From: Kocuria sp. cx-455
GTDB taxonomy: Bacteria; Actinomycetota; Actinomycetes; Actinomycetales; Micrococcaceae
Direction of reading: 5' to 3'
DNA: 64,000 nucleotides
Assembly: GCF_014698015.1 (NCBI RefSeq)
Contig: NZ_JACXBS010000001.1
Span: 558,001-622,000 of the forward strand
Below are positions 998 to 40,546 of this stretch, piece after piece. The notes beneath the pieces are model-generated. The model was not told where the DNA came from, searched no databases, and was given only the letters and a program-made list of their open reading frames with translations. Both the position numbers and the translations under genes were made by a program. Numbering within the stretch: position 1 is the stretch's first letter; each line of letters begins with the position of its first letter.

Positions 998-2932
<1,935 letters not shown>

Positions 2933-2934
2933 AC

Positions 2935-3570
2935 GTGAGCGATTCCGAGAACACCAAGGGCCACGGCCAGTCCGTGCCGGAGGAGGACCCGGAGCAGCCC
3001 GCTCAGCACCCTTCCGGCGAGCAGCAGTCCCAGGGCGAGCCGGGGTTGACCGTGGATGACATCCTCGGCACCCCGCAGTCCGAGGGCGTCGAAGCTGCCG
3101 ATGCGGCGTCGTCGAATGCCGACGACGCCGCCCCGGCGGGCGACGCCGCCGCCCAGAAGCTCGCGGACGAGCGACTTGAGGATCTGCGCCGCCTGCAGGC
3201 GGAGTTCGTGAACTACAAGAACCGCACCGCCCGTGAGAAGGAGCAACTGCGCGACTTCGTCTCCGCGGACATGATCACCGCGTTGCTGCCGGTGATCGAC
3301 GACATCGACGCGGGACGCAAGGTCGGGGACATCACGGACGGACCGTTCGCGGCCATTGCCACCAAGTTCGAGGAGACGCTGACGCGTCAGGGTCTCCAGC
3401 GACTGGGCGAGGTCGGTGAAGTCTTCGACCCGACCATTCACGAGGCCGTGATGCAGCAGCCCACCGACCAGGTGGAGCCGGACCACGTGTCCCTGGTGCT
3501 GCGATCGGGTTTCAAGATCGGTGACCGGGTGGTCCGCGCGGCTCAGGTGGCCGTGGCGGCACAGCCGTAA
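2935..3570 (+). CDS. grpE: Nucleotide exchange factor GrpE
   Basis: GrpE releases ADP from DnaK. The first ~75 residues are acidic, low-complexity and typical of actinobacterial GrpE. The coiled-coil region starts near DERLEDLRRLQAEFVNYKNR, and the C-terminal beta wing carries FDPTIHEAVMQQ and the ending GFKIGDRVVRAAQVAVA. The GTG at 2935 lies 8 bases after GGAAAG; a GTG at 2929 overlaps the dnaK stop but has poor spacing. The gene is separated from dnaK by two bases, so the two are cotranscribed. A strong hairpin lies just downstream before dnaJ. Confidence 0.97.
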   Translation: MSDSENTKGHGQSVPEEDPEQPAQHPSGEQQSQGEPGLTVDDILGTPQSEGVEAADAASSNADDAAPAGDAAAQKLADERLEDLRRLQAEFVNYKNRTAREKEQLRDFVSADMITALLPVIDDIDAGRKVGDITDGPFAAIATKFEETLTRQGLQRLGEVGEVFDPTIHEAVMQQPTDQVEPDHVSLVLRSGFKIGDRVVRAAQVAVAAQP

Positions 3571-38025: not shown

Positions 38026-38388
38026 TCACTGCCTTGGGTCCGAGAAGAATTCCGGGGGGTCGTCCCAGCGTGCGGTTTGCATCGCCACCTGTACGAGGTG
38101 GCCGTCAGAGTTCTTGAGCGGGGTTCCTTCCGCCAGGTAGTGCTCGCGTGCCGCGATCTGGAGGTGATCCGGCAGGGAACCGTCCGCGCGCACGATCCGC
38201 CACCAGGCGACGTCGTCACCGGCGAGACCGCGCGAGAGGATGCGAGCGGCCAACCGCGGGGAACTCAGCCCGGCGAGTTCGGCGAGATCGCCGTAGGACA
38301 ACACCCTCCCGGGTGGCATCGCGAGCACCACACGGCGGACGGCTCGTGCGGCGTGATCACCGGAGAGGGGCGCCGCTGGCTCACGCAT
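38026..38388 (-). CDS. Alkyltransferase-like protein (ATL, MGMT fold without acceptor cysteine)
   Basis: ATL proteins bind O6-alkylguanine in DNA and flag it for nucleotide excision repair. The 120-residue protein has the MGMT DNA-binding part: VLAMPPGRVLSYGDLAELAG and AARILSRGL. The PCHR active-site motif of MGMT is replaced by AWWRIVRADG, so no alkyl transfer is possible. ATG at 38388 overlaps the histidine kinase stop by 8 bases, so it is translated after the kinase in one operon, an unexpected partner for a repair protein. Confidence 0.9.
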   Translation of the reverse strand: MREPAAPLSGDHAARAVRRVVLAMPPGRVLSYGDLAELAGLSSPRLAARILSRGLAGDDVAWWRIVRADGSLPDHLQIAAREHYLAEGTPLKNSDGHLVQVAMQTARWDDPPEFFSDPRQ

Positions 38389-39580
38389 TGGCGAACGGGA
38401 TCCGCACGTCCAAGACCCAGCGACCGTTGTCCGGCCCATAGGTGACATCACCGTTGAGCAGCGCCACGCGCTCCTGGATGCCGTGCAGCCCGTAGCCGGA
38501 CGTGAGGGGATACTCGTCAGGACCGACCTCGTATGAGTGCTGGAGCTGGTTCTCCGTACGGATGAGCATCACGTTGGTATCCAGGGCGAGGAACAACAGG
38601 CAGTCCGAACCGGCGGGCGCGTACTTGATGATGTTGGTAGTAGCTTCCTGCAGAATACGCGCTGCGGTGCCGCGCACGGTGGTGGGCAGCTTGTCGAAAC
38701 CGTCATGGGCGTTCACGGTGACCCTGAAGCCGGCTGCGCTGAGACTCGCACTGAGGGAAGCCATCAAGTTCTTCAAGGAGCCGGTGGTCAGACCGGATGA
38801 GCTGTCGTTCCTGGTCACAGCCCCCGGAGACTCGCGCAAAATGTGCAGCAGGGTGCGCAGTTCTTGGAGGCCGGACCGGGCAGCGTTCTCCATGGTGGAG
38901 ATGGTCTCGTGCAGTACTGCGGGATCCTCCTGCCGGTGGGAACCCGCAGCCTGCATGGTCACGAGAGTGAGTTCGTGAGCCACCACGTCATGGAGGTCAC
39001 GGGCGAGTTCCAGGCGTTCCTGTTCACGCAGCTGCTGGTGTGCGGCCTCCACACTTCTCAAGCGAGCCTTGTTCTCCCGATGCTGGATGACCAAAAACCG
39101 TAGGGCTACGCCGATCATCACCCCGACCACCAACGGTGTTCCCATGATCCACAGGGCGTCCGTGGTGCTTTCCACCACGACGGCCGTGATGGTCCAGGCT
39201 GCGAGGGCCAAACTGTAGACCATGGTCAACAGGCGTGGCAACATGCTCACGGTGGCCACCGTGACAATCACCGCGCAAATAAGGGTGGAGGCGTAGTTGT
39301 GGGTAAGCAGCGCCAGAACCAGAGGAACTGGCATCAATGCACTTGCAACGCCCGGTCGCCATGCAATCAGAGCCAACGACACGTAGCCGAGTGTCATCTG
39401 AACGGCCACGAGAATCATCGTGGATGCAGCATATGTCGCCGGGTCTAGTGCTCGGAGATCGTCAAAAAGTCCAATTGCAGCGAAGAGAACCAATGTGACG
39501 CGAAGCCAGACAGGCAGTGGACTGGTGCGGCTGAAGCCCTCCCGCACGGAGGTAGATCCGGTCGGTGTGGCGATTACCAC
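38381..39580 (-). CDS. NarL-type sensor histidine kinase with six TM segments
   Basis: The 399-residue kinase has about six TM segments in the first ~165 residues with very short loops, and no extracytoplasmic sensor domain. A coiled coil leads to the HisKA_3 motif RDLHDVVAHELTL (His 197) and an HATPase domain with an N box (ILQEATTNIIKYA) and a G box (GYGLHGIQERV). GTG at 39580 overlaps the stop of the short peptide gene by 7 bases, so translation is coupled; the open frame upstream is antisense or in-frame shadow. The cognate regulator is divergent at 39806. Sensing within the membrane, perhaps of the upstream peptide, is inferred. Confidence 0.92.
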   Translation of the reverse strand: MVIATPTGSTSVREGFSRTSPLPVWLRVTLVLFAAIGLFDDLRALDPATYAASTMILVAVQMTLGYVSLALIAWRPGVASALMPVPLVLALLTHNYASTLICAVIVTVATVSMLPRLLTMVYSLALAAWTITAVVVESTTDALWIMGTPLVVGVMIGVALRFLVIQHRENKARLRSVEAAHQQLREQERLELARDLHDVVAHELTLVTMQAAGSHRQEDPAVLHETISTMENAARSGLQELRTLLHILRESPGAVTRNDSSSGLTTGSLKNLMASLSASLSAAGFRVTVNAHDGFDKLPTTVRGTAARILQEATTNIIKYAPAGSDCLLFLALDTNVMLIRTENQLQHSYEVGPDEYPLTSGYGLHGIQERVALLNGDVTYGPDNGRWVLDVRIPFANA

Positions 39581-39783
39581 CCGCCGCAGAGCTGGGGGAT
39601 GTAACGGCAAAGGGCGCTGCCCGGGCCCTTTTCGGCGGGACCCTGCTGAGCGGTCAACGCGGGGCCTCCCACGGTGAACAACAGGGAGCAAGCAATCAGA
39701 GTCGCTGCGAGAGCCTGCTTGAAACTCTTTGCGGCTCCGGTTTGGTCAGTATGGCGGGGGGAAATGGTGTGAGGTGAGTTCAT
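39574..39783 (-). CDS. Short secreted-peptide precursor overlapping the kinase gene
   Basis: I do not recognise this 69-residue ORF. It has a basic n-region (KSFK at 19-22), a hydrophobic core (ALAATLIACSLLFTVGG), probable signal peptidase sites near PA or LTA (residues 42-45), and a mature part of about 24-27 residues ending CRYIPQLCGGW with Cys 59 and Cys 66. LIAC at 29-32 also fits a lipobox, but the core before it is short. TAAACT (39790-39795) stands 6 bases before the ATG with no RBS, i.e. leaderless. The stop TAA overlaps the kinase GTG (GTGGTAA). Coding support is the signal-peptide architecture, promoter placement and overlap, not homology. Confidence 0.65.
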   Translation of the reverse strand: MNSPHTISPRHTDQTGAAKSFKQALAATLIACSLLFTVGGPALTAQQGPAEKGPGSALCRYIPQLCGGW

Positions 39784-39789
39784 GGGATC

Positions 39790-39799
39790 AGTTTATGAT
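39790..39799. promoter_or_regulatory. Overlapping divergent -10 elements of peptide-kinase and response-regulator genes
   Basis: On the minus strand TAAACT covers 39790-39795, 6 bases before the peptide ATG at 39783. On the plus strand TATGAT covers 39794-39799, 6 bases before the response-regulator ATG at 39806. The two elements share two bases, so the two polymerases should compete. Confidence 0.65.
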
Positions 39800-39805
39800 C
39801 AGAAT

Positions 39806-40546
39806 ATGGATTCGTGCACCCTTATGTTGGTCGATGACCACCCGCTCATGCGCGATGCACTGCGAAATCTATTTGATGCCGAGCCAGGATTCCAGGTCTT
39901 GGGTGAAGCGTCCGAGGGAGCCGAAGCCGTTCAAATGTGCTTGGAGCTGGATCCCGATGTAGTGCTCATGGACATCCGGATGCCCGGAATGGACGGGATC
40001 GAGGCCACCGCGCAAATCGTCCACCAGGCGCCCCGCAGCAAAGTTCTCGCACTCACCACTTTTTCTACGCTCGAGTATGTCGTGCCAGCACTTCGGGCGG
40101 GGGCCTCCGGATATTTGGTTAAAGATGCTCGCCATGAAGAAATAGTTTCTGCAGTGTTGCAGGTACGAGAAGATGAAATGACGCTGTCGCAGTCCGTGGC
40201 GAATTCGTTGGCGAACAATGTGCTGGGTGATGTGCCGGTCCCCTCGGTACGTAGAAGTTGGAATGAACCGACCAATACCCCTCCGGTGGAGTCATACGGC
40301 GCGGCGAGTCGGCAGTCCTACGTCCCGGAGCTGACGGCCCGCGAACTGGACACCCTGCGGTGGATCGCCAAGGGACTCAACAACAACGAGATCGCGGAGA
40401 AGATGAAAGTCTCCCACGGAAGCGTCAAGGCGTACGTGTCGCAACTGTGCGACAAACTCGGCGCTCGGGACCGGGTCCAGGTGTTGATCGCGGGTATCCA
40501 AAGCGGCTTGGTGAAGCCGGAACTGACCGAAGATCTCACCCGGTGA
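39806..40546 (+). CDS. NarL/FixJ family response regulator
   Basis: The 246-residue regulator has a receiver domain with acidic pocket DD (10-11), phosphoacceptor Asp 56 in VVLMDIRMPGMDG, and the Lys in YLVKDA; a ~45-residue linker; and a LuxR-type helix-turn-helix (ELTARELDTLRWIAKGLNNN). I chose ATG 39806 (MDSCTLMLVDDH) since TATGAT stands 6 bases upstream; the ATG at 39782 overlaps the peptide gene start and has no signal. It pairs with the divergent kinase at 38381-39580. Codon use in the receiver half is more AT-rich than in neighbours. Confidence 0.93.
   Translation: MDSCTLMLVDDHPLMRDALRNLFDAEPGFQVLGEASEGAEAVQMCLELDPDVVLMDIRMPGMDGIEATAQIVHQAPRSKVLALTTFSTLEYVVPALRAGASGYLVKDARHEEIVSAVLQVREDEMTLSQSVANSLANNVLGDVPVPSVRRSWNEPTNTPPVESYGAASRQSYVPELTARELDTLRWIAKGLNNNEIAEKMKVSHGSVKAYVSQLCDKLGARDRVQVLIAGIQSGLVKPELTEDLTR

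Follow-up and report, generated by a model that had tools for sequence, protein, structure and literature searches.

In Kocuria sp. cx-455 and several relatives, genes for small, probably secreted peptides with a terminal cysteine pair adjoin the genes of one group of membrane histidine kinases, and the sequences of these peptide–kinase pairs suggest a bacterial family of peptide signals not described before. The case described first lies in a 64,000-nucleotide stretch of the Kocuria sp. cx-455 genome (the window), where a peptide gene, a kinase gene and a divergent regulator gene form a compact unit. We consider it probable that this three-gene unit encodes a Sec-exported, disulfide-looped pheromone that is read by the membrane domain of the adjacent kinase, with phosphorylation of the regulator as the result. 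Its features, in window coordinates, are:

38381..39580, minus strand: HisKA_3 histidine kinase, GTG start, about six transmembrane (TM) segments
39574..39783, minus strand: peptide precursor ORF, 69 aa, supported by dN/dS and by conservation before the orthologous kinase
39649..39783, minus strand: putative signal sequence, residues 1–45, from a hydropathy filter and AxA-like ends in relatives
39577..39648, minus strand: putative mature peptide QQGPAEKGPGSALCRYIPQLCGGW, 24 aa
39586..39609, minus strand: Cys59–Cys66 loop (C-x6-C), putative disulfide; both Cys in 22/22 aligned family members
39786..39800, no strand assigned: GATCA-N5-TGATC inverted repeat between both start codons, possible operator
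39790..39795, minus strand: TAAACT, -10-like element of the peptide–kinase unit, 6 nt from the ATG, in 12/12 group-I loci
39794..39799, plus strand: TATGAT, -10-like element of the regulator gene, 6 nt from the ATG at 39806
39806..40546, plus strand: NarL/LuxR-type response regulator, Response_reg plus GerE (Pfam), divergent

The peptide ORF runs on the minus strand from an ATG at 39783-39781 to a stop at 39576-39574 (69 codons). A sequence-only reading of the window had described 69 residues with a basic n-region, a hydrophobic core and a CRYIPQLCGGW end carrying Cys59 and Cys66, and translation bears this out: the basic residues R10, K19 and K22 precede the hydrophobic core, and after it come a run of small residues (GGPALTA) and the tail QQGPAEKGPGSALCRYIPQLCGGW, with putative cleavage after ALTA45 placed by eye from the sequence. 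The ORF is a real gene that is constrained at the protein level. Among the four closest species, changes fall mostly at third codon positions and dN/dS is 0.11–0.23 in 6/6 pairs; together with the conservation described below, these ratios rule out a spurious ORF. When the 64-kb window was passed through a crude filter for a signal peptide plus a terminal Cys pair, five ORFs were retained, and this one alone was signal-peptide-like. The window peptide matched nothing in Pfam or NCBIfam up to E = 1. For the 22 family peptides, the same two collections gave only sub-cut-off matches at E ≤ 0.1, the best being BRANT_His_rich (E = 2.6e-4, 22 bits vs a cut-off of 44) over residues 1–37 of the G249 peptide.

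The stop codon of this gene overlaps the kinase GTG (at 39580) by 7 nt (39574-39580), as the same reading had it. The kinase has 399 aa and a clear HisKA_3 match (Pfam, E = 1.3e-14); its HATPase_c match, at 13.8 bits, is under the Pfam cut-off of 26.4. With a 19-residue Kyte-Doolittle window, six hydrophobic segments fall within residues 21–160, ahead of the H-box at 192–198, in line with the six TM segments originally proposed, although this number is approximate because the same method gives 2–9 in the 20 orthologues. By hydropathy the protein is thus polytopic, with about six TM segments and no extracytoplasmic domain. The regulator is divergent, as had been noted, starting on the plus strand at ATG 39806 and carrying Response_reg and GerE (E = 1.1e-15). 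At the other end of the kinase gene, the longest reading of an MGMT-family DNA_binding_1 gene (window 38029-38451, minus strand) shares about 70 nt with the kinase gene; the true start of this neighbor probably lies later. The ten window neighbors include, by Pfam, purine genes, the MGMT-like gene, GntR/FCD, a lactate permease and LUD lactate-use genes. Being housekeeping genes, they give no clue to a regulon. Pfam finds no maturation enzyme for the peptide among the ten; a protease, a prenyl transferase, a Lan enzyme and an exporter are all absent.

A kinase search of 27 Kocuria genomes found the orthologous kinase in 19 at E ≤ 1e-40 and did not find it at that threshold in the other 8. In all 19, a signal-peptide-like ORF ending in C-x6-C lies directly upstream. 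The idea that a C-x6-C-GGW ending would be conserved beside this kinase therefore holds for the cysteine spacing (19/19), whereas GGW, with W69, is confined to the four closest species; tails elsewhere end in NPR, GGH, CR or C. The endings of group I include CRYIPQLCGGW, CRFFPIYCNPR, CHYWPVLCPNR and CGYLPLLCKGGH, and those of group II CGWWPAICR, CGWFPFLCR, CKWWPVFC and CYYVPFWC. The 7-nt overlap with the kinase is likewise found in the four closest species; in the others the ORF ends before the kinase gene. Matches to the strict filter are concentrated where expected, with 18 in the 7.8 kb-strand upstream of the Kocuria orthologues vs 4 in 148.9 kb-strand elsewhere in the same loci. One locus (L035) was missed by the filter because its contig starts there, and the ORF itself is present. 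The chromosomal setting is also constant: in the Kocuria loci with long flanks, the unit adjoins the same GntR gene in 9/9 and has purD nearby in 8/9. At least one peptide–kinase unit is found in 20 of the 27 Kocuria genomes, including G017.

The region between the divergent genes is short. Only 22 bp separate the start codons of the peptide and regulator genes, and within them two -10-like hexamers share 2 bp. One of these, TAAACT, lies 6 nt ahead of the peptide ATG, in agreement with the leaderless-type -10 that had been suggested there, and -10-type elements are found in 12/12 group-I Kocuria loci with a spacing of 6–7 nt kept on both sides (TAAACT carries one A-to-G change in L044). In L037 the distance to the in-frame ATG, 6 nt, was taken by eye from the sequence. 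Hexamers 6 nt from each ATG fit leaderless transcripts. No sigma-70 -35/-10 pair was found, so an activator may be needed for transcription. The half of the inverted repeat nearer the peptide is not conserved across all group-I loci. The promoter 14-mer TGATCATAAACTGA has one exact copy in the genome and nine two-mismatch places, vs one for the reversed control; these nine could mark targets or could reflect GATC-rich words. Upstream of the group-II peptide ORFs (L046–L052, L092) lie conserved direct repeats TTCGACAAAAGT, CTGGACAAAGGT and GTTGGCAAA, candidate regulator sites whose spacings in L047 are about 22 and 33 bp.

The window unit is not the only one of its kind in its own genome. Kocuria sp. 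cx-455 has eight HisKA_3 kinases, and one besides the window kinase has an upstream signal-peptide ORF; near a further kinase (L083), a 52-aa ORF ending CSERRRRCY is unconvincing. The second unit, outside the window near 330 kb of contig C1, consists of a peptide gene (L087:1644-1907) whose product ends DDFLCKLFRSC, a kinase gene (1997-3298) and, again, a divergent regulator gene. The six nearest Kocuria matches of its kinase, the kinase itself included, all have a Cys-pair ORF (6/6). Paralogues of this sort end CKLFRSC, CKLLRSC, CSFLLLRWC, CGFLFLRWC, CSFLFLRWC and CGGWYFWC. Outside Kocuria, units were found in the same family (G189, G249, G307, G070), in other families of the order (G457, G651 with two units, G1065, G452, G543, G611) and in another order (G908). 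In one genus of the same family (L089, L091), peptide, kinase and regulator genes follow one another in that order and in one direction.

With a kinase profile, 297 genomes of the order yielded 12 places outside the own genome (E ≤ 1e-50). At six of these, a Cys-pair ORF with a signal-peptide-like start lies upstream (L099, L100, L102, L103, L104, L109); one has a short Cys-pair ORF with no signal peptide (L105), and five have no Cys-pair ORF upstream (L097, L098, L101, L106, L107). At two of these five, L106 and L107, a conserved Cys-less 15-aa ORF, MGIFY[IV]FGKMIGIFR, precedes the kinase; it may represent a linear form of the signal. Follow-up kinase searches found matches in 2/47 and 3/101 genomes, and 5/5 of these kinases have a Cys-pair ORF. 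A second kinase profile, run against 345 genomes of the class, gave 29 non-own loci. The ORF is convincing at one of them, L112, which belongs to another order (CSYYPDWC); L113 and L118 have short Cys ORFs, one locus repeats L106, and the remaining 25 have no ORF by the strict filter. Since 5/25 unrelated-kinase loci also show Cys-rich ORFs once the signal-peptide requirement is dropped, the short-ORF class (L105, L113, L118) is weak evidence. A peptide profile matched 179 of 395 family genomes at E ≤ 0.05, chiefly through signal-peptide-like stretches, and outside Kocuria these matches are mostly noise.

As a control, we searched 17 Micrococcales genomes for HisKA_3 and, among the matches listed, took 80 loci from 14 genomes (open frames of up to 500 aa, leaving out the own genome and one contig-end case). 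The H-box was where expected in 74/80 of these, and the strict filter gave one doubtful ORF among the 80 (L239), unlike the family. A kinase tree was then built from 66 loci, of which L084 was left out and five fragments below 200 aa were dropped, leaving 60 rows: 30 labelled as peptide-linked, including the three short-ORF loci, and 30 without. All 30 peptide-linked kinases and five without a Cys-pair ORF (the five order-level places named above) are separated from the remaining 25 by a branch with support 97/95. The peptide label needs 5 changes on this tree vs 20.4 in shuffles (0/500 as low). As several branches (L089, L113, L118) are long and the loci were chosen with profiles derived from peptide-linked kinases, the grouping is suggestive rather than independent.

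Across the 22 aligned family peptides, both cysteines are always present, with varying spacing, and they are kept while peptide identity falls to 20–37%. The general family feature is a terminal Cys pair 5–9 residues apart, enclosing a mostly hydrophobic or aromatic loop, in a variable tail. The n-regions of L099 and L154 have no K or R. That the cysteines are, apart from the initial Met, the only residues common to all 22, and that no modification enzyme lies nearby, would also be expected if the peptide, secreted or tethered, were a thiol-disulfide switch through which the kinase monitors extracytoplasmic oxidation rather than density. We regard such a redox reporter as unlikely, as it needs neither loops that vary between groups, nor tails of differing length, nor divergence in step with the kinase membrane domain.

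One unit outside Kocuria has a suggestive neighborhood. In G651 (L170:6314-15299), a regulator gene and a peptide–kinase unit stand directly before two class II (LanM-type) lanthipeptide synthetase genes; among the relatives with scanned neighbors, LanM genes are found beside the unit in G651 only. The arrangement fits density control of a bacteriocin, with the lanthipeptide cluster as a possible target. It would also be welcome to the view that the peptide itself acts as a small bacteriocin, which the kinase–regulator pair senses in order to amplify production or immunity, and small amphipathic or aromatic Cys-loop peptides are not out of character for such a role. However, the ten window neighbors include no immunity, transport or modification gene, and the position of the unit is constant across Kocuria, unlike that of typical mobile bacteriocin loci. 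We therefore give an autoinduced antimicrobial little chance.

The co-divergence of peptide and kinase was analyzed in 20 orthologues, 19 from Kocuria and one from G189. Mean identities among them are 0.38 (membrane part of the kinase), 0.60 (its catalytic part) and 0.72 (regulator). In partial Mantel tests, the peptide core follows the membrane part given the catalytic part (r = 0.45, 0/5000 permutations) and not the catalytic part given the membrane part (r = -0.05). The correlation is found in group II plus G189 (r = 0.72, 5/5000) and in 15 dereplicated members (r = 0.35, 4/5000) and fails to reach significance when group I is taken by itself (r = 0.16, 474/5000); it thus leans on group II and on the split between groups I and II, in a peptide core of only 14–18 residues. 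The peptide and kinase genes appear to evolve together. The conserved ORF in relatives, the coding constraint and the conserved -10-type elements all went the way that the sequence-only reading required. For its proposal that the kinase senses the mature peptide, possibly disulfide-cyclised, as a density or stress cue, support concerns the sensing and is indirect, coming from the co-divergence with the membrane domain and from the existence of a peptide-associated kinase group.

This is the pattern that a ligand and its receptor would leave, and a tethered partner would give the same. Small membrane proteins modulate some kinases directly. WalH and WalI, for example, are small membrane proteins that act on the kinase WalK (PMC8534201). 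An uncleaved peptide acting as an accessory subunit of the kinase would account for an ORF that always adjoins the kinase gene, with translational overlap in the window, as well as for the co-divergence, and in a few members Cys32 lies in a lipobox-like LIAC. Against such a membrane-retained subunit, most members have small residues resembling a cleavage site before the variable tail, and the lipobox is not conserved, with group II lacking Cys32. We consider it improbable, and a lipoprotein anchored through LIAC32 was rejected since that Cys is not conserved among family members. A leader ORF that merely sets kinase translation, or a chance ORF, is scarcely credible: the 7-nt overlap in the four closest species would suit it, but not the low dN/dS, the Cys pair retained at such low identity, or the absence of overlap in other species.

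Under the pheromone reading, which we prefer, the 69-aa precursor would leave the cell through Sec, and signal peptidase would release from it a peptide of some 15–24 residues, in which the two cysteines would close an 8-residue loop through a disulfide. The adjacent kinase, having no extracytoplasmic domain, would bind this peptide through its membrane domain and phosphorylate the NarL-type regulator encoded on the other strand. Probable targets of this regulator are the divergent promoter that the peptide and regulator genes share, giving feedback, and other genes; the unit would then serve in population sensing. Sequence-distinct units, with other loops and other membrane domains, would act as parallel channels, of which at most two per Kocuria genome were seen. 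We are more hesitant about the widest version of this idea, an undescribed signaling language across the Micrococcales in which enzyme-free, disulfide-cyclised, Sec-exported pheromones and dedicated HisKA_3 kinases form private channels by co-diversification of loop and membrane domain (several per genus, two here), with at least one wired to a lanthipeptide cluster; this is an attractive possibility that we would not yet bet on. A three-gene unit with a synthesizable, unmodified-looking peptide of 15–24 residues would make peptide communication in this group open to direct testing, and it would offer small orthogonal sensor parts. The 20 orthologues plus the paralogues would be a natural panel for mapping how a membrane kinase recognizes a peptide, and a likely ligand would be named for kinases otherwise annotated only as generic sensors.

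Several known systems invite comparison. In staphylococcal Agr, AgrB processes AgrD and closes it into a thiolactone ring; AgrC is not known to belong to the HisKA_3 kinases, and AgrA carries a LytTR domain. The Kocuria unit differs in its signal-peptide-like precursor, its two cysteines, its HisKA_3 kinase and its GerE regulator. What it shares with Agr (AgrBDCA) and Fsr is the location of a small peptide gene next to that of a six-TM kinase that has no extracytoplasmic domain, a type of kinase that in AgrC binds a cyclic peptide (PMC8534201). AgrB (PF04647) was found in 0/27 Kocuria genomes at E ≤ 0.001, in a search whose 14 control genomes gave one sub-cut-off hit and thus no strong positive control. 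In ComQXPA of Bacillus, the pheromone gene adjoins that of an HPK7-type (HisKA_3-type) ComP, and ComA is of the NarL/LuxR type; the Kocuria unit likewise has a HisKA_3 kinase and a NarL/LuxR regulator. ComX, however, is not known to carry a signal peptide and is isoprenylated on Trp by ComQ, whereas the terminal Trp of the Kocuria peptide is restricted to the four closest species and no ComQ-like prenyl transferase is found by Pfam among the ten window neighbors. The ComC/ComD and BlpC/BlpH systems pair an unmodified short peptide with a polytopic HPK10 kinase, a GG leader and an ABC exporter; unlike these double-glycine pheromones, the Kocuria peptide does not conserve GG39-40 and has no exporter among its ten neighbors. 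A Lan synthetase, expected beside a lanthipeptide precursor, is likewise absent from those ten.

In the passages of a 2016 review of actinobacterial quorum sensing that we cite, Kocuria appears only for LuxR_C-like/REC proteins; experimental support for quorum sensing is said to exist for few actinobacterial genera, and no peptide–kinase pair is named for Kocuria (PMC4748050). A link to competence in Micrococcus luteus was considered and set aside, the cited part of that work containing no comparable peptide–kinase pair (PMC8467076). The original impression that no such family had been described stands as far as Pfam, NCBIfam and open-access full texts reach (most subscription papers and all bioRxiv preprints lie outside them): they yielded no family and no prior description of the unit. 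Given this and the AgrB result, we place the unit among peptide-linked two-component systems, as a member of that kind that lies outside both Agr and ComQXPA.
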